Shown here: piece by piece, positions 20,850 through 32,567 of the stretch
Position numbering within the stretch: position 1 is the first letter of the stretch
How the letters are laid out: each line of letters begins with the position of its first letter
Assembly: GCA_902601865.1 (NCBI GenBank)
Contig: CACKOX010000001.1
Span: 1-64,000 of the forward strand
Source of the DNA: an uncultured Alphaproteobacteria bacterium
GTDB taxonomy: Bacteria > Pseudomonadota > Alphaproteobacteria > HIMB59
Length of the DNA: 64,000 nucleotides
Reading direction: 5' to 3'
Translations under genes and position numbers: made by a program
Notes under the pieces: model-generated
Told to the model about the DNA's origin: nothing
The model's input: the letters and a program-made list of their open reading frames with translations, nothing else
The model's database searches: none

Positions 20850-21773
20850 TTAAATAGTTTTTATAGTTTTATAGATTGACTCTGCTGATAGACCATTTTC
20901 ATTTAATAAAAATTCTCTTCCACCATTTTGAAAGTAATATTTATCAGCTAACCCCAAGCATTTGATTTTCTTTGGTGACACTCCATTTTTTGCTAAAGCA
21001 TTAACAATTATTGATCCAAATCCACCATTAAGAGTTTGTTCCTCAATAGTAACAATTGTTTCATACTTACCTATCTCCTTAATTAATTTATCAGATAGTG
21101 GCTTAATGCTGATTACATCATATATTGATACGTCAATTTTTTCCTGTGAAAGTAACTTCTGAGCATCTATAGCTTTGTGGAGCATGTATCCAGAACTCAA
21201 AATACAAATATTTTCTCCACTATGAATTTTTTCATAACCATCTTTGTTAAAAATATGATCAGAAGAATATACATTATGTAAATTATTTCTCTCCATTCTA
21301 ATATACCTTAACTTAGGAACATCAATCGTTGTTTGAGCAATATAATTTGTTGAAATTTCATCACTTGGGGACGAAATATCTAAATTTACTATTGAATTCA
21401 TTATTGATATGTCTTCATTAAGATAATGCGTTGGACCTGCATCTGCATAACCTAAACCTACTCCAACAGCTAATACAGTAACTGGCAAGTTCATAATTGC
21501 TAATGAACATTTAATTTGTTCTAAACATCTAATGGAAATGAAAGGGGCCATTGCATAAACGTAGACTTTATTTCCATCTAAGGCTAAACCTGCAGCCATA
21601 TCGATCATATGTTGTTCAGATATACCGGAATGAATAAATTGATCAGGAAGATTAGTTCTAAATTTATCAAGTGCCGGCGCACCAAAATCGGCACTTATAA
21701 AAAAAATATTCTTATTTCTTTCTGCGTGTTCATAGATTTTATTTATAAAAACATCTCTTTGAAAACTACTCAT
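20850..21773 (-). CDS. transketolase C-terminal subunit (pyrimidine-binding/TK-C half)
   Basis: 307 aa; SADFGAP, GISEQHMIDMAAGLAL, VTIEEQTLNGGFGS. Confidence 0.88.
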   Translation of the reverse strand: MSSFQRDVFINKIYEHAERNKNIFFISADFGAPALDKFRTNLPDQFIHSGISEQHMIDMAAGLALDGNKVYVYAMAPFISIRCLEQIKCSLAIMNLPVTVLAVGVGLGYADAGPTHYLNEDISIMNSIVNLDISSPSDEISTNYIAQTTIDVPKLRYIRMERNNLHNVYSSDHIFNKDGYEKIHSGENICILSSGYMLHKAIDAQKLLSQEKIDVSIYDVISIKPLSDKLIKEIGKYETIVTIEEQTLNGGFGSIIVNALAKNGVSPKKIKCLGLADKYYFQNGGREFLLNENGLSAESIYKTIKTI

Positions 21774-22596
21774 TAATCGTAAGCTCCGACCTGGCTTTTT
21801 TTATTAATTCGTCAGATAAGGGATTCCAATAATGCCAATTAGGTTTATTTTCCATAAAAGAAATTCCTTTACCTTTTGTAGTATCTGCAATTAATATTTT
21901 CGGTTTATTAGAAACTTTATTGATAGAGTCAAAAGAGTCTAATAAATCCATAATTGAATGCCCATCTACATTATCTACATGAAAACCAAATGACATCCAT
22001 TTATCTTTGATGGGCTCTAAAGCTAAACATTCCTCAGTATCGCCTAAGATAATATTTCTATTTCTATCAAGTATAACAATCAAATTATCTAATGAATGAT
22101 GTGATGCAAATAAAGCACTTTCCCAAACTGAACCCTCATACATCTCACCTTCACTGAGTATCACAAAAGTTTTATTTTTTGCATTTCTCTTCTTTGCGGA
22201 ATAAGCAAAGCCACATCCAACACCTAAACCATGACCTAGGGACCCAGAGGTACAGTCAATACCTGGAATTGATATGTTCCCAAATAATTTAAGCAATGAA
22301 TCACTTTTACCAAAATTTTCTAACTCCTCTTTTTTAAAATAACCTATATCCGAAAAAATTGGATATAGACTCATTGCAGCATGACCTTTACTTATAATTA
22401 TTTTATCTTTTTCAGGATGAAAGGGTTCATTTTTAAAATATTTAATTACACCACCATAATATAGACAAACAAGTATTTCTATTTGTGATAATATTGAGCC
22501 AGGGTGACCTTGTTTTACAGATAAAAGCATTTCAAAACATTCACTTCTTAACCATTTACATTTGTTTTCTAATGCTTTGATATTCAAGTTTGTCAA
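21766..22596 (-). CDS. transketolase N-terminal subunit (TPP-binding half)
   Basis: 276 aa; GHPGSILSQIEI, KDKIIISKGHAAMSLYP, GSLGHGLGVGCG. Confidence 0.9.
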   Translation of the reverse strand: MTNLNIKALENKCKWLRSECFEMLLSVKQGHPGSILSQIEILVCLYYGGVIKYFKNEPFHPEKDKIIISKGHAAMSLYPIFSDIGYFKKEELENFGKSDSLLKLFGNISIPGIDCTSGSLGHGLGVGCGFAYSAKKRNAKNKTFVILSEGEMYEGSVWESALFASHHSLDNLIVILDRNRNIILGDTEECLALEPIKDKWMSFGFHVDNVDGHSIMDLLDSFDSINKVSNKPKILIADTTKGKGISFMENKPNWHYWNPLSDELIKKARSELTINE

Positions 22597-22597
22597 A

Positions 22598-24130
22598 TCA
22601 ATCTCCTAAAATCTTCCTTTTCAATCTTACTTTATTCATTTCAACAATATTTTCGACAGCAATATCTCCAAATTTATTTTTAATCCTATTAAGGAAAGGA
22701 GGGTAACTGTGATACTCTATAAATGCATCATCACGAAGTTTAAGGATCTCCGCAGCTGTAAGATTCTCATTTCTAAGCGGTAAACATTCATATGATAACC
22801 AAGCATAACCCTCGTAATTAATCGGCAAATCATAGTTTTTTTCTAATGCTGTTTTATACAAATTACTACCAGGTAGTGCCATTGAAGCATAAGTATTCCA
22901 ACCGGAAGTGCAAATCCTTTTGCTAAGTTCTAAAGTTTCTTTGATGGTCTCTTTAGTGTCACCTGGTAAACCATATATATAGTTTGCCATCACTTCTATA
23001 TCTGAGCTATGAACTTTGTTTATTATATCTTCTACGTCGACATCTTCAAATTTACCCTTAGATATCTCTAATCTTATTGATTTTTTACCACTCTCAATGC
23101 CCAAACATAGCCACTTAATTCCAGCAGCTCTTACTGTTTCTAATATGTTTGGTTTTTTTATTGTATCGACTCTTGAGTATGCCCATAGTCTCAAATTATT
23201 CTTTTTATTTCTAATTTTAAGTAATTCACAAAGAGGTAAATAATATTTTGGATTTAATAAAAACATTTCATCTACAATTCTTATTGTTTCTACTCCATAT
23301 TCAAATAATTTATCAAATTCCTTAATAATGAACTCTGGTGACCAATATCTCATAAAACTATAATTAGACGCTACACCAACGGCTTCGTTATCATTTCTAT
23401 TTATCAAATTAATCATACAAAAGTCACAACCAAATTTACATCCAAGGGATGTTTGGATAGCAGCATATGGAGATCTTTTTTCCTCATTGTACTCAGCGTG
23501 CCACATTGGAGATCTGTATAAGTCAAAAGGTTTTGATTTGTATGGAAGAAGATCCCAAGCATATCCTGGTAAATCAATATCCATTCTTTCTTGAGGAACG
23601 ACTTTTTCTGCCTTATTTATAATTACTTTTTCATTACTTCGGAAACCAATACCTTTTATTTCCTTCAAATATTCAAAGCTAAATTCACTAAGTTTTAAAA
23701 TATTTCTTAAAGCGTATACACCCTCATTTGTAAGAATAATATCAACACTCTTTTCTTTTTCTAAAGTCTCAACAGGCAGAGCTTGAACATGAGAACCAAC
23801 ATAAACAATTTGAGATTTAATTTTTTGCTCTTTTAAATATTCAGAAAGGAATATTGCCCCACTCATGCTTGTTGTTCCAGCATTTACATTTTGACCATAT
23901 ACAACAAAACATATTATTCTGGGATTGAATTCTAAAACTCTAATATAAATTTCATCTAAAGTTAAATTTTCAGCATTTACATCTAAAATCTTACATGTGT
24001 GCCCAATTGATCTACAAGATTGTGCCAAAAGTAAAGCCCATGTTGGAGTCTCTATAGCCGAATATCTCCGAGAAAGTGCTTGATATGATGCTTTTGAATT
24101 ACCAGGAGAAACAAATAAAATATCAATCAT
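22598..24130 (-). CDS. B12-binding domain radical SAM protein
   Basis: 510 aa; LGCKFGCDFCMINL (CxxxCxxC) after an N-terminal cobalamin-binding-like domain. Confidence 0.88.
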   Translation of the reverse strand: MIDILFVSPGNSKASYQALSRRYSAIETPTWALLLAQSCRSIGHTCKILDVNAENLTLDEIYIRVLEFNPRIICFVVYGQNVNAGTTSMSGAIFLSEYLKEQKIKSQIVYVGSHVQALPVETLEKEKSVDIILTNEGVYALRNILKLSEFSFEYLKEIKGIGFRSNEKVIINKAEKVVPQERMDIDLPGYAWDLLPYKSKPFDLYRSPMWHAEYNEEKRSPYAAIQTSLGCKFGCDFCMINLINRNDNEAVGVASNYSFMRYWSPEFIIKEFDKLFEYGVETIRIVDEMFLLNPKYYLPLCELLKIRNKKNNLRLWAYSRVDTIKKPNILETVRAAGIKWLCLGIESGKKSIRLEISKGKFEDVDVEDIINKVHSSDIEVMANYIYGLPGDTKETIKETLELSKRICTSGWNTYASMALPGSNLYKTALEKNYDLPINYEGYAWLSYECLPLRNENLTAAEILKLRDDAFIEYHSYPPFLNRIKNKFGDIAVENIVEMNKVRLKRKILGD

Positions 24131-25593: not shown

Positions 25594-25794
25594 TTGAGTA
25601 ACATGAAAACAATATTTAAAATTGCCTCCAAAAACCATACCCTTAAATACCAAAGAAAGATGTCTGAAGGTGAAGTAAAAAAAATGAAGTCTTTTGTTAC
25701 CGATAAAGGTGAAAAATTACAAAAGACTAGTAAATTTAAAATTATTGATATTCAAGACTCAAAAGATCAGAAAATATACAAAATAACTTTGTAA
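25594..25794 (+). CDS. hypothetical protein
   Basis: 66 aa ORF. Confidence 0.4.
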   Translation: MSNMKTIFKIASKNHTLKYQRKMSEGEVKKMKSFVTDKGEKLQKTSKFKIIDIQDSKDQKIYKITL

Positions 25795-25828: not shown

Positions 25829-26194
25829 TTATAGAAACTTATTTAACTCAATTAAAATTTGTTTTTTTGAAGACAAATAAGAGCAATTATACTTTCTCAA
25901 GCCTTTATTGTGAGTCATAACTAAGCTATCTTTATCTATAGTTCCAATATGTTGTATTTCTAAAAGATTTGAATTTATCTCCTCAAAATCTTTGTTGTGA
26001 TACTTAATCTCATTTGATTGTATAAAGTAGGCTTGAGTATTTTTTGAATTTTCAAAATAAAAGTAAAACGGATAACCTCTCATTGTCTCTCTATCTGTCT
26101 CACACCTCATAGCTTTTCCAATTATTTCTTCCCCAAAAACATAAGAATAAAAAAAAGTACAAAAAAATATTACAAATATTTTATTTATAAACAT
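25829..26194 (-). CDS. small exported hypothetical protein (start corrected from 26221)
   Basis: Signal peptide-like MFINKIFVIFFCTFFYSYVFG; the upstream MQGNRTPP extension is translated att-like repeat. Confidence 0.5.
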   Translation of the reverse strand: MFINKIFVIFFCTFFYSYVFGEEIIGKAMRCETDRETMRGYPFYFYFENSKNTQAYFIQSNEIKYHNKDFEEINSNLLEIQHIGTIDKDSLVMTHNKGLRKYNCSYLSSKKQILIELNKFL

Positions 26195-26197
26195 GAT

Positions 26198-26218
26198 AGG
26201 GGGTGTTCTGTTGCCCTG
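26198..26218 (+). repeat. copy A of tmRNA 3'-end/att-like repeat: AGGGGGTGTTCTGTTGCCCTG
   Basis: 18/21 identical to copy C at 32266-32286. Confidence 0.7.
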
Positions 26219-26220
26219 CA

Positions 26221-26607
26221 TTAATCACATACATAACTAACTAAGTCTTTTAAAATAGTATCATCTTTGACTTCAATCCAATCTGACTCTTCATTACCCA
26301 CAAACGACGGTTCTCCTTCGCCCATTGATAATTTAAAGTAAAAATCAGTTAAATATTTGAATTTTAGATTTTTGCAATCTACCTCATGATGAATTATGCT
26401 AGATTTTTCTCCATAATCATTAAAATCTGAATATTCATGCATTTTTATAAAAAAGATTTTATCTCCTTTTTGATTTATCGAATTTTTATCAATAAAGAAC
26501 ATATTACCCTCGTCAGTTTTAAGAACTAGCTCCCATTCAAAATCAGTCGAAAAAGTATTTGAAATTCCAAAAAATAAATAAATAAAAAAGAAATATAATT
26601 TTTTCAT
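26221..26607 (-). CDS. small exported hypothetical protein (start corrected from 26676)
   Basis: Signal peptide-like MKKLYFFFIYLFFGISNTFS; the ORF extension includes TRNRTPLLDL from repeat copy B. Confidence 0.5.
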   Translation of the reverse strand: MKKLYFFFIYLFFGISNTFSTDFEWELVLKTDEGNMFFIDKNSINQKGDKIFFIKMHEYSDFNDYGEKSSIIHHEVDCKNLKFKYLTDFYFKLSMGEGEPSFVGNEESDWIEVKDDTILKDLVSYVCD

Positions 26608-26616
26608 CAAATCCAA

Positions 26617-26637
26617 AAGGGGCGTTCTGTTTCTCGT
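26617..26637 (+). repeat. copy B of tmRNA 3'-end/att-like repeat: AAGGGGCGTTCTGTTTCTCGT
   Basis: First 15 nt identical to copy C; 18/21 overall. Confidence 0.75.
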
Positions 26638-26677
26638 CCCTTGATTAATAATATACAGAATATAACACTTTTTCAAA

Positions 26678-26699
26678 AACTTCGTGTAAAACTTCGTGT
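26678..26699 (+). repeat. left 22-bp direct repeat AACTTCGTGTAAAACTTCGTGT
   Basis: Exact match to 32198-32219; third half-copy TTGACTTTCAACTTCGTGTAA at 26726-26746. Confidence 0.85.
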
Positions 26700-26824
26700 A
26701 GTGTTTTGCTCATTTTGCCGATTTCTTGACTTTCAACTTCGTGTAATTAGAATTTTTCCTCAACTTTTATATTCGCATTTGCAAGTTAACTGGAATACTT
26801 AAGTAAAATATCTTACATTTATTT

Positions 26825-29047
26825 ATGCCTAAAAAAAAAGAGATTAAAAAAGTAGATTTAAAAGAAACGCTTTGGAAAGCAGCAGAAAAGTTAAGAAATC
26901 AAATGGATGCCGCTGAGTATAAACATATAGTGCTTGGTTTAATCTTTTTAAAATATATTTCAGATACTTTTGATATTCAAAAAAATAAAATAGAACAATT
27001 AGTTTCGGATGAAAAATCAGATTTTTTTATAAGTCAAGATCCTAAAATATATAAAAAGGAATTAGAGGATAGAGATTATTATACTCAAGATAATGTTTTT
27101 TGGGTTCCAGAAAAAGCAAGGTGGGAAAAACTTAGAGCAAAAGCAAAACAACCTGATATAGGATCAATTATAGACAATGCAATGATTGAGATCGAAAATG
27201 AAAATAAATTTCTTAAAGGCAAACTAGATAAAAGATTTGCTCTTACGGAATTAAATGAGGGAGTTCTTGGATCACTTATAGATCAAATATCAAAAATTGG
27301 TTTTAACTCTGAAAGTATGTCAAAAGATCTTTTGGGAGAAGTTTATGAATATTTTTTAGGTAAGTTTGCTTTAGCGGAAGGTAAAAAGGGAGGTCAGTTT
27401 TATACACCTAGTCATGTTGTTGAAACATTAGTTTCAATTATATCTCCATATAAAGGAAGGATATATGATCCATGTTGTGGTTCTGGAGGAATGTTTGTTC
27501 AAAGTCATCAATTTATTAAATCCCATGGGGGAAAAATTAATGATGTTTCTATTTATGGTCAAGAAAGTAACCCAACAACTTGGAGATTAGCATTAATGAA
27601 TCTATCTATAAGAGGATTTTCAGCAGATTTGGGAAGAACTCACGGTGATACTTTTGGAAAAGATCAATTTCCTAATTTAAATTTTGATTATATTTTGGCA
27701 AATCCACCATTTAATGACTCAGACTGGGGAGGAGAAAAGTTTTTAAATGATCAAAGATGGATCTATGGTCAACCACCATTATCAAATGCAAATTATGCTT
27801 GGTTACAACATATTATTTATAAATTAAAAAATAACGGAAAGGCAGTAGTGGTTCTAGCAAAAGCATCACTTACTTCGAATAGTTCTAATGAAAATATTAT
27901 TAGAAAAAATTTGATAAATGAAAATATTGTAGACGCTATTATAGAACTACCAGATAAATTATTTACAAATTTTAGTGGTCCAGTTTGTATATGGGTATTT
28001 GATAAAAACAAAAAAAATAAAAATATTTTATTAATTGATGCTTCTAAATTTGGAAAAATGCAAGATGCTAGTCTTAAATATTTAGATAAAGATGAAATTA
28101 CAAAATTAGGTTTAACTTATAATAATTGGAAAAGTAATACTAATTTTAAAAATATCAATAATTTTTGTAGAAGCGTTTCTCCTGAAGAAATTAAAAAGTT
28201 AGATTATTCATTATCAGTACAAAGGTATTTATTCAAAGATGATAAAAAAAATGATATTTCAACTGAAGATGAAATTGCAAGTTTATTAGAAAGATTTAAA
28301 TTTTTAAAAGTATCCTCAGAAAATTCAAATAAAGAAATACTTAATAATTTAAAACAGTTTAAATTTAAAGTTTCCTCTAAAGAAAAAGAAACTAGCAATT
28401 TAAATATTAATCAAACTCTAGAAAAAATTGGCATCAAAATTTTTAAATTGTGGTTTGTAGATTATAAAATACCTGGACATAATATTATTGATAATAAGAA
28501 ATTTAAAATTATAGATAATCTTAAAATTCCAGAGGGATGGTCATATGAGAAATGTAAAGAGAGATTTGACATATCAATAGGAAGAACGCCACCAAGAAAA
28601 GAGTTCAAATGGTTTAGTGATGATGAAAATGATATTCCTTGGTTATCAATAGCGGACATGAAAGATGCCAATATATATATTAAAAAAACTTCTGAATTTT
28701 TAACGAGAGAAGCAATTAAAAAATTTAATGTTCCGATTATAAAACCTGGTACTACAATTTGTAGTTTTAAGTTAACCGTAGGTAGAGTTGCTTTAACCTC
28801 TGACAATATCGCAACCAATGAAGCAATTGCACATTATGTTCCTAAAAAAGATAATTTTTTGAATATTTATATATATTTTTATTTAAAAAATTTTTTATTT
28901 AAATCTTTAGGAAGTACCTCATCTATTGGAACAGCAATCAATTCAACGATGTTAAAAGAAATGAAAATAATTTTTCCCCCAGATGAATTAATTAAAAAAT
29001 TTAATAATTTAGTTAATCCAATTTTGCAAAAAAGTTTAAATGAATAA
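26825..29047 (+). CDS. hsdM: Type I R-M: fused methyltransferase-specificity protein (HsdM-HsdS, one TRD)
   Basis: 740 aa; HsdM N domain, DPCCGSGGMFVQ, ILANPPFND, then HsdS-like TLEKIGIKIFKLWFVDYKIP...LKIPEGWSYEKC and a single TRD. Confidence 0.88.
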   Translation: MPKKKEIKKVDLKETLWKAAEKLRNQMDAAEYKHIVLGLIFLKYISDTFDIQKNKIEQLVSDEKSDFFISQDPKIYKKELEDRDYYTQDNVFWVPEKARWEKLRAKAKQPDIGSIIDNAMIEIENENKFLKGKLDKRFALTELNEGVLGSLIDQISKIGFNSESMSKDLLGEVYEYFLGKFALAEGKKGGQFYTPSHVVETLVSIISPYKGRIYDPCCGSGGMFVQSHQFIKSHGGKINDVSIYGQESNPTTWRLALMNLSIRGFSADLGRTHGDTFGKDQFPNLNFDYILANPPFNDSDWGGEKFLNDQRWIYGQPPLSNANYAWLQHIIYKLKNNGKAVVVLAKASLTSNSSNENIIRKNLINENIVDAIIELPDKLFTNFSGPVCIWVFDKNKKNKNILLIDASKFGKMQDASLKYLDKDEITKLGLTYNNWKSNTNFKNINNFCRSVSPEEIKKLDYSLSVQRYLFKDDKKNDISTEDEIASLLERFKFLKVSSENSNKEILNNLKQFKFKVSSKEKETSNLNINQTLEKIGIKIFKLWFVDYKIPGHNIIDNKKFKIIDNLKIPEGWSYEKCKERFDISIGRTPPRKEFKWFSDDENDIPWLSIADMKDANIYIKKTSEFLTREAIKKFNVPIIKPGTTICSFKLTVGRVALTSDNIATNEAIAHYVPKKDNFLNIYIYFYLKNFLFKSLGSTSSIGTAINSTMLKEMKIIFPPDELIKKFNNLVNPILQKSLNE

Positions 29048-29049
29048 CA

Positions 29050-32000
29050 ATGTTAATTAATGAAGAACAAATAGAAAAGCAAAGTATAACTTGGTTTAAA
29101 GAAATTGGATATTCGTATAAAAGTGGCAAAGAGTTTAATGTTGATTATATTCATTCAGAGAGAGATAATTTAAAAAAAACTATTCTTGAAGATAGATTCT
29201 TAAATTGTTTAAAAAAAATTAATTCTGATATACCGTCCAGAAGTATAAAAGATTCAATTAACCAAATTATTAATCCAAATATTTCAGATCTCTATGAGTG
29301 TAATCGCAAAATTCATTCATGGATTTCAAAAGGTTTAAAAATTAAATATTTTAAAAATAACCAAGAGTTTGGTGCTCAATTAAAGTTAATTGACTTTGAA
29401 AACGTTCATAATAATGAATGGTTAATCGTTAATCAATTTGAAGTAAAAGGCGATAAAAGACTGAGAAGACCTGATGTTGTGGTTTTTGTAAATGGATTAC
29501 CATTATCGGTGATTGAGTTTAAAAACCCTGCTGATGTTAAAGCAGATATATGGTCAGCATTTAATCAGTTACAGACCTATAAAGATAACATTCCAAATCT
29601 ATTTAATACTAACGTGAATTTAATAATTAGTGATGGAGTTGAGGCAAGAGTTGGTTCTTTAACAGCAGATCAAGAAAGGTTTATGAGATGGAGAACAATT
29701 GAAGGAGATAAAATTGATCCATTTGGAGAGCATCGTGATTTAGAAACTTTAATTAAAGGTTTATTTAACAAAGAAACTTTACTCCAATTTATAAAACACT
29801 ACTGCATTTTTGAAGAGGATAAAATAATAATAAAAAAAATTGCTGAATATCATCAGTATTATGCAGTTCAAAAAGCAGTAGAAAGAATAGTATCTTCTAG
29901 TAAACCAGATGGAGATAAAAAGGGTGGTGTAGTCTGGCATACACAAGGTGCAGGAAAAAGTTTAGAGATGACTTGTCTTGCAGGAAAATTAATTACAGAA
30001 CCTAGACTAGAAAATCCTACATTATTAATGGTTACAGATAGACAAGACTTAGACGGATCTTTATTTGATACTTTTAATGATGCGGGAAACTTATTAGCAG
30101 AGTCACCTACAAAAGCAGAAAGTAGAAAAGATCTTCGAGATCAATTAAACAATAAACCATCTGGAGGAATAATATTTACTACAATTCATAAATTTGGATT
30201 GGATAAAGGAGAAGATAAGTTTCCAACTCTTACAAATCGTCATAATGTAGTTGTAATTTGTGATGAGGCACATCGAACGCAATATGGATTTAAGGGTCAT
30301 GTAGATAAAAAAACTGGTGAAATAAAATATGGTTTGGCAAAATCAATGAGAAATGCACTACCCAATGCTACATTTGTTGCATTTACAGGAACACCTATTT
30401 CTAAAGATGATCGAGATACTCAATCAGTATTTGGAAACTATGTATCTATATATGATATTCAGCAAGCAGTTGAAGATGGTGCAACAGTCCCAATTTACTA
30501 TGAGTCTAGACTTGCAAAAATAAGTCTTAAAGAAAATGAGATTCCTATTATCGATGAAAAAGTTGAAGAAATTTTTGATGATAGTGTTGATGATGATAGA
30601 GAAAAAGAAAAAGCAAAATCTAGATGGGCACAGTTAGAAGCAGTAGTTGGTGCAGAACCTAGAATTAAACAAATTACAGAAGATTTAATTAAACATTTTG
30701 ATACTCGAACCAAAACTCAACCTGGTAAAGCAATGATTGTGTGTATGAGTAGAGAAATTTGTGTAAAGTTTTATGAGGCATTAAGAAAATTAAGACCAGA
30801 ACTTCATGATGTAGAATTATCAAAAGGTCAAATGAAAATTGTAATGTCAACATCAGCATCTGACCCAAAAGAATTTCAACCTCATCATACAAATAGATTA
30901 CAAAAGAAAGATTTAGAAAATAGATTTAAAGATCCATCTGACCCATTAAAAATAGTTATCGTGAGAGATATGTGGTTAACAGGGTTTGATGCACCATGTT
31001 TAACCACAATGTATGTAGATAAACCCATGCAAGGAGCAAATCTTGCACAAGCAATTGCAAGAGTTAATAGAGTGTTTGGTGACAAACCTGGTGGATTAGT
31101 TGTTGACTACATTGGAATTGCACCTCAACTTAAAGAAGCATTGGCAACTTATGCAAACAGTAATGGAAGAGGTCAACCAACAATTAATACTGATGAAGCA
31201 TTAAAAATACTTGAGGAAAAACTTAAAGTTGCACAAGATTTGTTACATCCAGTTGATTGGTCAGATTATATAAAAAATGCATTAAAACTATTGCCTGCTT
31301 GTTTAGACAATATTTTGCAAAAACCTGATGGTAAAAGAAGATACTGCGATACAGTTCTTGCGATTACAAAAGCATTCGCACTTTGTGGAACAATGGAGGA
31401 GGCAATGCAACATTCTGCAGAAGTAGCATTTCATCAGGCAATCAGAGCACCATTAATTAAAAAAAGTGGCATTGGTACTGACGGACAATACAAAAATGTA
31501 GACTTTGAACTTAAACAATTAGTTTCAGAATCATTAGTTGGAGATGGTGTAGCAGATGTATTTAAAATTGCAGGACTAGAATCCCCTGATATTTCAATTT
31601 TATCTGATGAGTTTCTTGCAGAAGTAAAGAAGATGCCACAAAAAAATCTTGCAGTAGAGTTACTTCAAAAACTAATGAAAGATGAAATGAAAACTAGATT
31701 TAAAAATAACATTGTTAAACAAAAACAATTTTCTGAATTACTTCAAAACGCATTAGATAAATATAGCAATAGAGCAATAGAAGCAGCACAAGTCATAGAA
31801 GAACTTATTCAAATGGCAAAAGCATTTAAAGAAGATTTAGATAAAGCAAAAAAAATGAATCTAAATGAAAGTGAAGTCGCATTTTATGATGCATTGTCAG
31901 ATAACAATTCTGCAAAAGAATTAATGGGTGATGAACTCTTGGTTAAGATTGCAAGAGAGGTTGCAGAAAAGTTAAGAAAGAATGTTACTGTAGATTGGAA

Positions 32001-32148
32001 TGTAAAAGAGTCAGTAAGGGCAAAACTAAGATTAATTATTAAAAATATTCTTAAAAGATATAAGTATCCACCCGATGAAGAGAAAAAAGCAATTGATCTA
32101 GTTTTAGTTCAAGCAGAGCAATTTTCTGAAGAGTGGTCAGTAAATTAA
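29050..32148 (+). CDS. hsdR: Type I restriction endonuclease R subunit
   Basis: 1032 aa; VIEFKNPADVKADIW, WHTQGAGKSLEMT, ICDEAHRTQYG, AFTGTPI. Confidence 0.95.
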   Translation: MLINEEQIEKQSITWFKEIGYSYKSGKEFNVDYIHSERDNLKKTILEDRFLNCLKKINSDIPSRSIKDSINQIINPNISDLYECNRKIHSWISKGLKIKYFKNNQEFGAQLKLIDFENVHNNEWLIVNQFEVKGDKRLRRPDVVVFVNGLPLSVIEFKNPADVKADIWSAFNQLQTYKDNIPNLFNTNVNLIISDGVEARVGSLTADQERFMRWRTIEGDKIDPFGEHRDLETLIKGLFNKETLLQFIKHYCIFEEDKIIIKKIAEYHQYYAVQKAVERIVSSSKPDGDKKGGVVWHTQGAGKSLEMTCLAGKLITEPRLENPTLLMVTDRQDLDGSLFDTFNDAGNLLAESPTKAESRKDLRDQLNNKPSGGIIFTTIHKFGLDKGEDKFPTLTNRHNVVVICDEAHRTQYGFKGHVDKKTGEIKYGLAKSMRNALPNATFVAFTGTPISKDDRDTQSVFGNYVSIYDIQQAVEDGATVPIYYESRLAKISLKENEIPIIDEKVEEIFDDSVDDDREKEKAKSRWAQLEAVVGAEPRIKQITEDLIKHFDTRTKTQPGKAMIVCMSREICVKFYEALRKLRPELHDVELSKGQMKIVMSTSASDPKEFQPHHTNRLQKKDLENRFKDPSDPLKIVIVRDMWLTGFDAPCLTTMYVDKPMQGANLAQAIARVNRVFGDKPGGLVVDYIGIAPQLKEALATYANSNGRGQPTINTDEALKILEEKLKVAQDLLHPVDWSDYIKNALKLLPACLDNILQKPDGKRRYCDTVLAITKAFALCGTMEEAMQHSAEVAFHQAIRAPLIKKSGIGTDGQYKNVDFELKQLVSESLVGDGVADVFKIAGLESPDISILSDEFLAEVKKMPQKNLAVELLQKLMKDEMKTRFKNNIVKQKQFSELLQNALDKYSNRAIEAAQVIEELIQMAKAFKEDLDKAKKMNLNESEVAFYDALSDNNSAKELMGDELLVKIAREVAEKLRKNVTVDWNVKESVRAKLRLIIKNILKRYKYPPDEEKKAIDLVLVQAEQFSEEWSVN

Positions 32149-32178
32149 CCGTTATACACGCAGATGCGACTATAACGG
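32149..32178 (+). terminator. 8-bp perfect inverted repeat after hsdR: CCGTTATA-N14-TATAACGG
   Basis: Starts immediately after the hsdR stop; loop contains a nested CGC-AGAT-GCG; no strong U-tract, so terminator versus element end is uncertain. Confidence 0.45.
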
Positions 32179-32197
32179 CAAAAGTTTATTGACTTTA

Positions 32198-32219
32198 AAC
32201 TTCGTGTAAAACTTCGTGT
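32198..32219 (+). repeat. right 22-bp direct repeat AACTTCGTGTAAAACTTCGTGT
   Basis: Exact match to 26678-26699; TTGACTTT context also shared (32189 vs 26726). Confidence 0.85.
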
Positions 32220-32265
32220 GGTTCTTAATTTGATATTTGAGATGGAATAAAGGTTTCCTTTAGTT

Positions 32266-32286
32266 AAGGGGCGTTCTGTTGCCCGG
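32266..32286 (+). repeat. copy C (parent) of tmRNA 3'-end/att-like repeat: AAGGGGCGTTCTGTTGCCCGG
   Basis: Lies at the 3' end of the tmRNA coding piece. Confidence 0.75.
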
Positions 32287-32520
32287 CCGCCCCAAAGCCG
32301 CGCTTACCTAATTAGATTAAGCAGCGAGTGCTAATTCATTATCGTTAGCAATTATTTTAAGTTTCTATGTCGAAGAAACGCTTACAACGAGCAAAAACTA
32401 TATCCTTCAGAGCACGTCAAACCTATATCACCCCCATAAGAATTTTTATGGTGGAGGTGTCGGGTACCGCCCCCGAGTCCGATACACCTATTACATATAG
32501 CGTTTATTGCCATAGTTGAT
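32266..32520 (-). ncRNA. ssrA: permuted two-piece tmRNA; tag ANDNELALAA; outer boundaries approximate
   Basis: Minus strand: acceptor piece ...ACACCTCCACCA (ends 32449), 13-nt spacer TAAAAATTCTTAT, coding piece GGGGGTGATATAGGTTTGACG (from 32435); acceptor stem pairs; tag GCT AAC GAT AAT GAA TTA GCA CTC GCT GCT TAA at 32349-32317. Confidence 0.92.
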
Positions 32521-32567
32521 AAACAACGCAGATAATATAGTCTAATAAATGAATCCTTTAAACATCT

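Follow-up and report, generated by a model that had tools for sequence, protein, structure and literature searches.

Small modules in a HIMB59 genome are probably stacked by nested site-specific insertion at the 3' end of ssrA

In a 64,000-nucleotide stretch of DNA from an uncultured alphaproteobacterium of the HIMB59 lineage (GenBank assembly GCA_902601865.1, contig CACKOX010000001.1, positions 1 to 64,000, forward strand; hereafter "the window"), one small gene for an exported protein lies tightly between two degenerate copies of the end of ssrA, the transfer-messenger RNA (tmRNA) gene. How did pieces of an RNA gene come to bracket a protein gene? The answer put forward here, which we regard as probable, is a nested series of site-specific insertions at ssrA, by integrases acting in trans, through which modules would stack into genome-specific, integron-like arrays. 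SAR11 and HIMB59 number among the ocean's most abundant and most streamlined cells, and precise gain and loss of single genes at one locus would account mechanistically for part of their flexible genome; the cargo concerned comprises restriction systems, nucleases, methyltransferases and small exported proteins.

The ssrA gene of the window (32265-32566, minus strand) is a circularly permuted, two-piece alpha-tmRNA gene (Rfam RF01849, 195.5 bits, E = 1e-55; tmRNA* in ARAGORN). Its 3' end carries the putative attachment (att) core GGGCAACAGAACGCCCC (32268-32284, minus strand, no mismatch), whose shared part, ACAGAACGCCCC, occupies 32268-32279. Two degraded copies lie on the same strand: copy B, GAGAAACAGAACGCCCC (26619-26635, minus strand, two mismatches), the distal core of a restriction-modification (R-M) island, and copy A, GGGCAACAGAACACCCC (26200-26216, minus strand, one mismatch), behind the small gene. 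With up to three mismatches allowed, these were exactly the three matches to GGGCAACAGAACGCCCC in the window, against none in 100 dinucleotide shuffles of it, and copies A and B, first proposed in the initial annotation, are therefore real and score far above shuffled sequence. The GGGCAACAGAACGCCCC core was present in the ssrA gene of every genus-mate examined, with a single change in one of them, and the left flank of copy B, ATTAATCAAGGGACGAGAA, was found again on a 129-bp module of G052. A chance origin of the core copies was ruled out by the shuffles, the flanks and the empty sites described below. The 3' end of ssrA is best read as an attachment site for inserted modules.

The regions downstream of ssrA were compared among genus-mates and in the sister family of the same order. 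Nine genus-mates showed a ground state in which F9, a conserved 63-amino-acid gene that serves as chromosomal anchor (25594-25794, plus strand, in the window; located by comparison with relatives), lies about 20 bp past the ssrA core, ahead of a conserved gene row. The corresponding neighbour of the core in the sister family is a rhodanese-like gene (named by eye). The extra DNA of other genomes sits between the ssrA core and the ground-state neighbour: in the window, a type I R-M island, a gene of the Adhesin_E type and another small gene separate ssrA from F9. In the 52 genus genomes, each exact ACAGAACGCCCC either belonged to ssrA or followed shortly downstream of it, always in the same orientation (1 match for a reversed control pattern), and exact copies in the sister family were nearly all in line downstream of ssrA, with a few at other places in G051, G054 and G118. 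Across the order, the core was present in 122 of 162 genomes, and at least two exact copies in 64 of these 122 (13 of the 39 core-bearing genomes of the genus and 51 of the 83 of the sister family). In the mapped set, which over-samples multi-copy sister-family genomes, 60 of 94 genomes had at least one module, with 116 modules altogether. Relatives had different modules past ssrA, in arrays of up to eight cores (the largest within 11 kb on a single contig of G132), and, together with the ground state of the nine genus-mates, this bears out the serial accretion at one att site that had been suggested from the window alone.

The core forms the 3' terminus of the coding piece of the tmRNA, and its copy reaches about 30 nt in some SAR11 cassettes, which would suit conserved RNA elements, i.e. 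ssrA processing or termination signals reused behind each gene, rather than attachment sites. In distal copies, however, the GGGGC half of the stem is usually missing, their left flanks vary with the element family and not with the gene, and the copies lie at ends that bear arm repeats and at the insertion points defined against empty sites. This RNA-signal reading was rejected on the shuffles, the flanks and the empty sites, and is highly improbable.

The R-M island (26619-32267) contains two R-M genes only: HsdM (26825-29047, plus strand; N6_Mtase and HsdM_N, Pfam PF02384 and PF12161), whose C-terminal part, judged by eye, is probably a target-recognition domain, and HsdR, the type I restriction subunit (29050-32148, plus strand; Pfam PF04313, PF18766 and PF11867). 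Matched direct repeats of ACACGAAGTT, missed by the initial annotation, lie immediately within both ends, two at the ssrA-proximal end (32198-32219, minus strand; 32198-32207 and 32210-32219) and three at the distal end (26678-26744, minus strand; 26678-26687, 26690-26699 and 26735-26744). The island has two hallmarks of integration, a far-end direct repeat of the ssrA 3' end with the target gene restored, and a precise empty site in relatives without the insertion; the integrase that an integrative island would encode is absent from it. It is best explained as an "armed" module, the arms being the repeats next to the cores.

Most modules of the relatives also have short tandem direct repeats beside the core at both ends, differing by element family (ACACGAAGTT in the window, CTACGAAGTT, AGCAGACACTT, GCATACA(C/G)TTT, TGCACACACT, AGAACACA, TGACACA, ACGCGT(A/C), GTGCCGTTT and others). 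Heterobivalent lambda-type integrases require such paired arm repeats. GC-bearing 8-mers common to a module's own two ends were found in 46 of 78 non-redundant modules, against 7.5% of mismatched pairs, and sharing as high was obtained in 0 of 5000 permutations. Nearly identical PEBP cargo occurred with three arm types (GCAGACAC, GCATACAC and GCATACAG), both ends having changed together, and one hybrid was found among these elements. Minimal modules of 120-152 bp consist of arms and core only, the cargo of armed modules reads mostly against ssrA (58 of 67 open reading frames, ORFs), and the same end families are present in two families of the order.

Four sister-family elements form an integrase decay series, always at the same position, about 95 bp inside the ssrA-proximal end. 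The integrase is intact in G079 (336 amino acids, PF00589; the element's own repeats are GCCGAAGC), frameshifted in G115, and reduced to N-terminal remnants of 54 amino acids in G128 and 26 in G081, which show deletion in these elements. Besides the remnants, G079 (intact) and G115 (broken) were the only ones with an integrase among the elements studied; one PF00589 member was present among 101 cluster representatives of module cargo, and no tyrosine recombinase was found in the arrays of the genus. No phage structural family appeared among the 25 most frequent of the 66 Pfam families in module cargo. On the strength of this decay series, the most plausible reading of the armed modules is as integrase elements that have lost the enzyme.

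A module of about 800 bp with CTACGAAG arms, encoding a 175-amino-acid protein without Pfam match, was seen in 21 sister-family genomes studied (L125-L174), often immediately behind ssrA. The same element was also found at a different locus, where it follows a core close to a DnaQ-like exonuclease gene (L163 in G118, C2; L165 in G054, C4; L294 in G093), possibly a second attachment locus; in G093 (L294) an integrase and a truncated integrase N-terminus are close by.

The 420-bp module between copies B and A has as its sole content a gene (26221-26607, minus strand) for an Adhesin_E-like exported protein, a homologue of Surface-adhesin protein E (Pfam PF16747, E = 3e-15). The tight fit described at the outset was confirmed, with coordinates and gaps right to within a few bases: the ATG at 26607 is 9-11 nt from copy B, the stop codon (26221-26223) 2-4 nt from copy A, and the start of the next gene (26194) 3-5 nt from copy A. 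In terms of cores, the gene starts 11 nt behind one and stops 9 nt ahead of the next. Unlike the R-M island, this module has no direct-repeat arms at its ends. Any match to its gene was found in 5 of the 52 genus genomes (own genome counted) and close homologues in 2, both in ssrA arrays, the sole other one (G066) being directly behind the last core of the array. Between the window and G066 the DNA of the gene is 91.9% identical, above the 84.0% of neighbouring genes. The next gene (25829-26194, minus strand) encodes a second small exported protein and, by alignment to empty sites, is an insertion with respect to the ground state; no distal core was recognisable for it. It had any match in 2 of the 52 genus genomes (own included) and a close homologue in 1, was absent from 50, and left a broken trace in the ssrA-downstream region of G065. 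Neither small gene is thus conserved in the relatives; invariant conservation would have spoken against accretion. The gene at 25829-26194, which the ground state lacks and of which G065 keeps only a broken trace, brings the nested additions in the window to three or more: first this gene, next the Adhesin_E gene and last the R-M island, in an order deduced from position.

In the proposed explanation, the ssrA 3' end would repeatedly take up short modules through site-specific recombination inside a core of 12 bp (up to about 22 bp), each insertion restoring the end of ssrA. A newcomer would enter at the ssrA core, displace older modules and leave a core copy at its own far end, so that a row would run from the youngest module, beside ssrA, to the oldest. 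Most modules would be non-autonomous descendants of tyrosine-integrase elements which kept the core and the paired arms; the integrase being lost, they would need one in trans, most simply supplied by autonomous relatives. The A-B module would be an older, armless single-gene module that probably arrived in one piece, earlier than the R-M island; read-through transcription from ssrA may formerly have covered its gene. Such arrays offer a readable record of insertion order, and a natural decay series from integrase element to arm-only module.

Several observations weigh against nested insertion with integrases in trans. The arm repeats are putative integrase sites, called by position and pairing. 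The window genome (G000, 85% complete) has one tyrosine recombinase, of Xer size (286 amino acids, C1:76841), a helper for its CGAAG-type arms was sought without success, no excision or circle was seen, and scans of IMG/VR with the core and its flanks, the element end and tandem arm repeats detected no attP. Most of the genomes compared are incomplete single-amplified or metagenome-assembled genomes. The A-B module is armless, so the integrase route of the armed modules gives no direct explanation for it. Finally, the Adhesin_E gene has unlike right ends in the window and in G066, so that the A-B module may have been remodelled by homologous recombination.

These unlike right ends would also fit arrays built by homologous recombination between the ssrA-downstream regions of different lineages, the cores being relics of a few old integrations with no integrase movement now. 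Hybrid elements in G066 (L109, modules 2 and 3) and G018 (L043), whose left arms are of another type than their right arms, look as if neighbouring elements of the array had recombined and point the same way, and marine plankton often exchange DNA laterally by recombination (PMC12416821). However, many unrelated modules have their boundaries exactly at the 12-bp core, homologous recombination would not maintain paired arms, and neither the arm-only minimal modules nor the end families common to two families of the order are accounted for, which makes this origin of the arrays unlikely compared with nested insertion at ssrA.

With regard to the helper, 17 integrase-like loci elsewhere in the genus genomes had no arms (one chance match) and no intact core. 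A phage helper was considered and rejected: the IMG/VR matches traced to tmRNA genes carried by phages, to coding repeats or to chance. Eight marine viral contigs of IMG/VR (L073, L077, L082, L084, L088, L090, L094 and L101) carry an apparent 3' end of an alphaproteobacterial-type permuted tmRNA gene.

Weak or one-sided arms escape automatic detection, and the armless class was therefore defined by the absence of a left-arm match together with tight gene geometry. Armless tight modules are known in six genomes of the order, window included; the others carry unrelated genes (G066 module 1, 244 bp; G132 module 5, 371 bp; G103 module 3, 681 bp; G124 module 1, 441 bp; G118 module 1, 237 bp). In the six cases the ATG lies 6-44 nt behind a core and the stop codon 9-20 nt ahead of the next, and the gene is ssrA-directed in 6 of 6, against 9 of 67 ORFs in armed modules (Fisher p = 3e-5). 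Arrays of up to eight cores, with a different ssrA end, GGGGCACCTGGCA, also occur in records titled Pelagibacteraceae or Pelagibacterales. Among these SAR11-type loci, chosen for having the core and grouped by record title, 14 of 77 modules were tight, single-gene and in the ssrA direction, and 31 of 77 had a common end family. The latter (arrays L194, L195, L211 and L228) share an end of about 145 bp, most with three CAAYGAAGT repeats at one side only, and their cargo gene reads towards ssrA, often ending 1-30 nt from the other core. The comparison of the A-B module with integrons concerns the layout only, of which five further genomes of the order and SAR11 have the tight single-gene form; the commonest module type is of the integrase type with paired arms, and no integron integrase or attC was shown.

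The A-B module might be a decayed armed element from which a deletion removed the arms and brought the gene against the core, the product then being kept since read-through from ssrA expresses the gene. The core behind the Adhesin_E gene is degenerate both in the window and in G066, as in an old insertion, and the gene reads with ssrA, unlike armed cargo; yet the tight geometry recurs with unrelated genes, in the six cases here and similarly in the 14 SAR11 modules, so that repeated random deletion is hardly its source, and we consider such decay possible but doubtful. It is a tentative proposal, and a rather unlikely one, that the armless tight modules are true single-gene cassettes, circulating and inserting via the ssrA-end sequence only and expressed from the ssrA promoter, which would amount to integron-like capture in HIMB59 and SAR11, independent of integron integrase and attC. 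If so, ssrA would be attachment site and promoter platform at once.

Tandem ssrA islands (PMC3146451), accretion of cis-mobilizable elements (CIMEs; PMC5704250) and additive islands at RNA-gene ends (PMC10872708, PMC7771536) are already known. In the ssrA islands of Dehalococcoides (vcr-GI; PMC3146451) some modules lack integration genes and accretion was proposed, as for the present arrays. The vcr-GI islands have a serine recombinase module (DsiB/DsiA) and are located within 100 kb, whereas the present arrays have tyrosine-integrase type arms and modules mostly below 2 kb, almost never contain an integrase, and target a permuted tmRNA gene at its 3' end. CIMEs have lost integrase and transfer genes, kept attL/attR and stack at one site (PMC5704250), like the present modules, and the R-M island, with cores and arms at both ends of its two genes, corresponds to this description. 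CIMEs derive from conjugative or mobilizable elements, whereas the present modules go down to 120 bp of arms only and no conjugation gene was noticed in them.

As far as the accessible text of the two reports goes, the tRNA-Lys repeats of Ca. Methylopumilus (PMC10872708) and the tRNA cassettes of Ca. Actinomarinales (PMC7771536) resemble the present arrays in having cassettes at an RNA-gene end, recurring direct repeats of the last bases of that gene and much cargo of unknown kind; at ssrA too, the number of cassettes varies at one RNA-gene end with a repeated end sequence. The same text does not report ssrA as a site or HIMB59 as a host, nor does it describe arm-type repeats, an integrase decay series or a tight armless class. 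Tycheposons, as described in PMC10872708, are marine, RNA-gene-targeted cargo elements related to tyrosine recombinases, like the present modules, but measure 4-200 kb, carry a recombinase and have tRNA genes as target; the window island targets ssrA and has no recombinase inside. Integron arrays and clusters of attC sites lacking integron integrases (CALIN; PMC11389934) share with the present arrays single-gene modules between repeated recombination sites, with no adjoining integrase. They differ in that the site here is the ssrA end (module ends in the window are a 12-17 bp core adjoining the stop codon) and most modules have phage-integrase-like arms, no IntI or attC-like site having been shown. 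A study of HIMB59 islands (PMC10734472) found no RNA-gene or insertion sequence hallmark at them and does not mention ssrA or tmRNA, and no report of such ssrA arrays in HIMB59 or SAR11 was found in the literature searched, most subscription papers and preprints lying outside it.

Two minor observations concern other loci. The sister-family genome bin G051 contains two full tmRNA genes (L120 on C33 and L141 on C55), one with a SAR11-type 3' end, which may reflect contamination or a transferred ssrA. Positions 20850-24130 of the window, between conserved genes, are another variable locus, with a radical-SAM-like protein and a split transketolase-like pair, and this content was common only to G010 among the loci compared.
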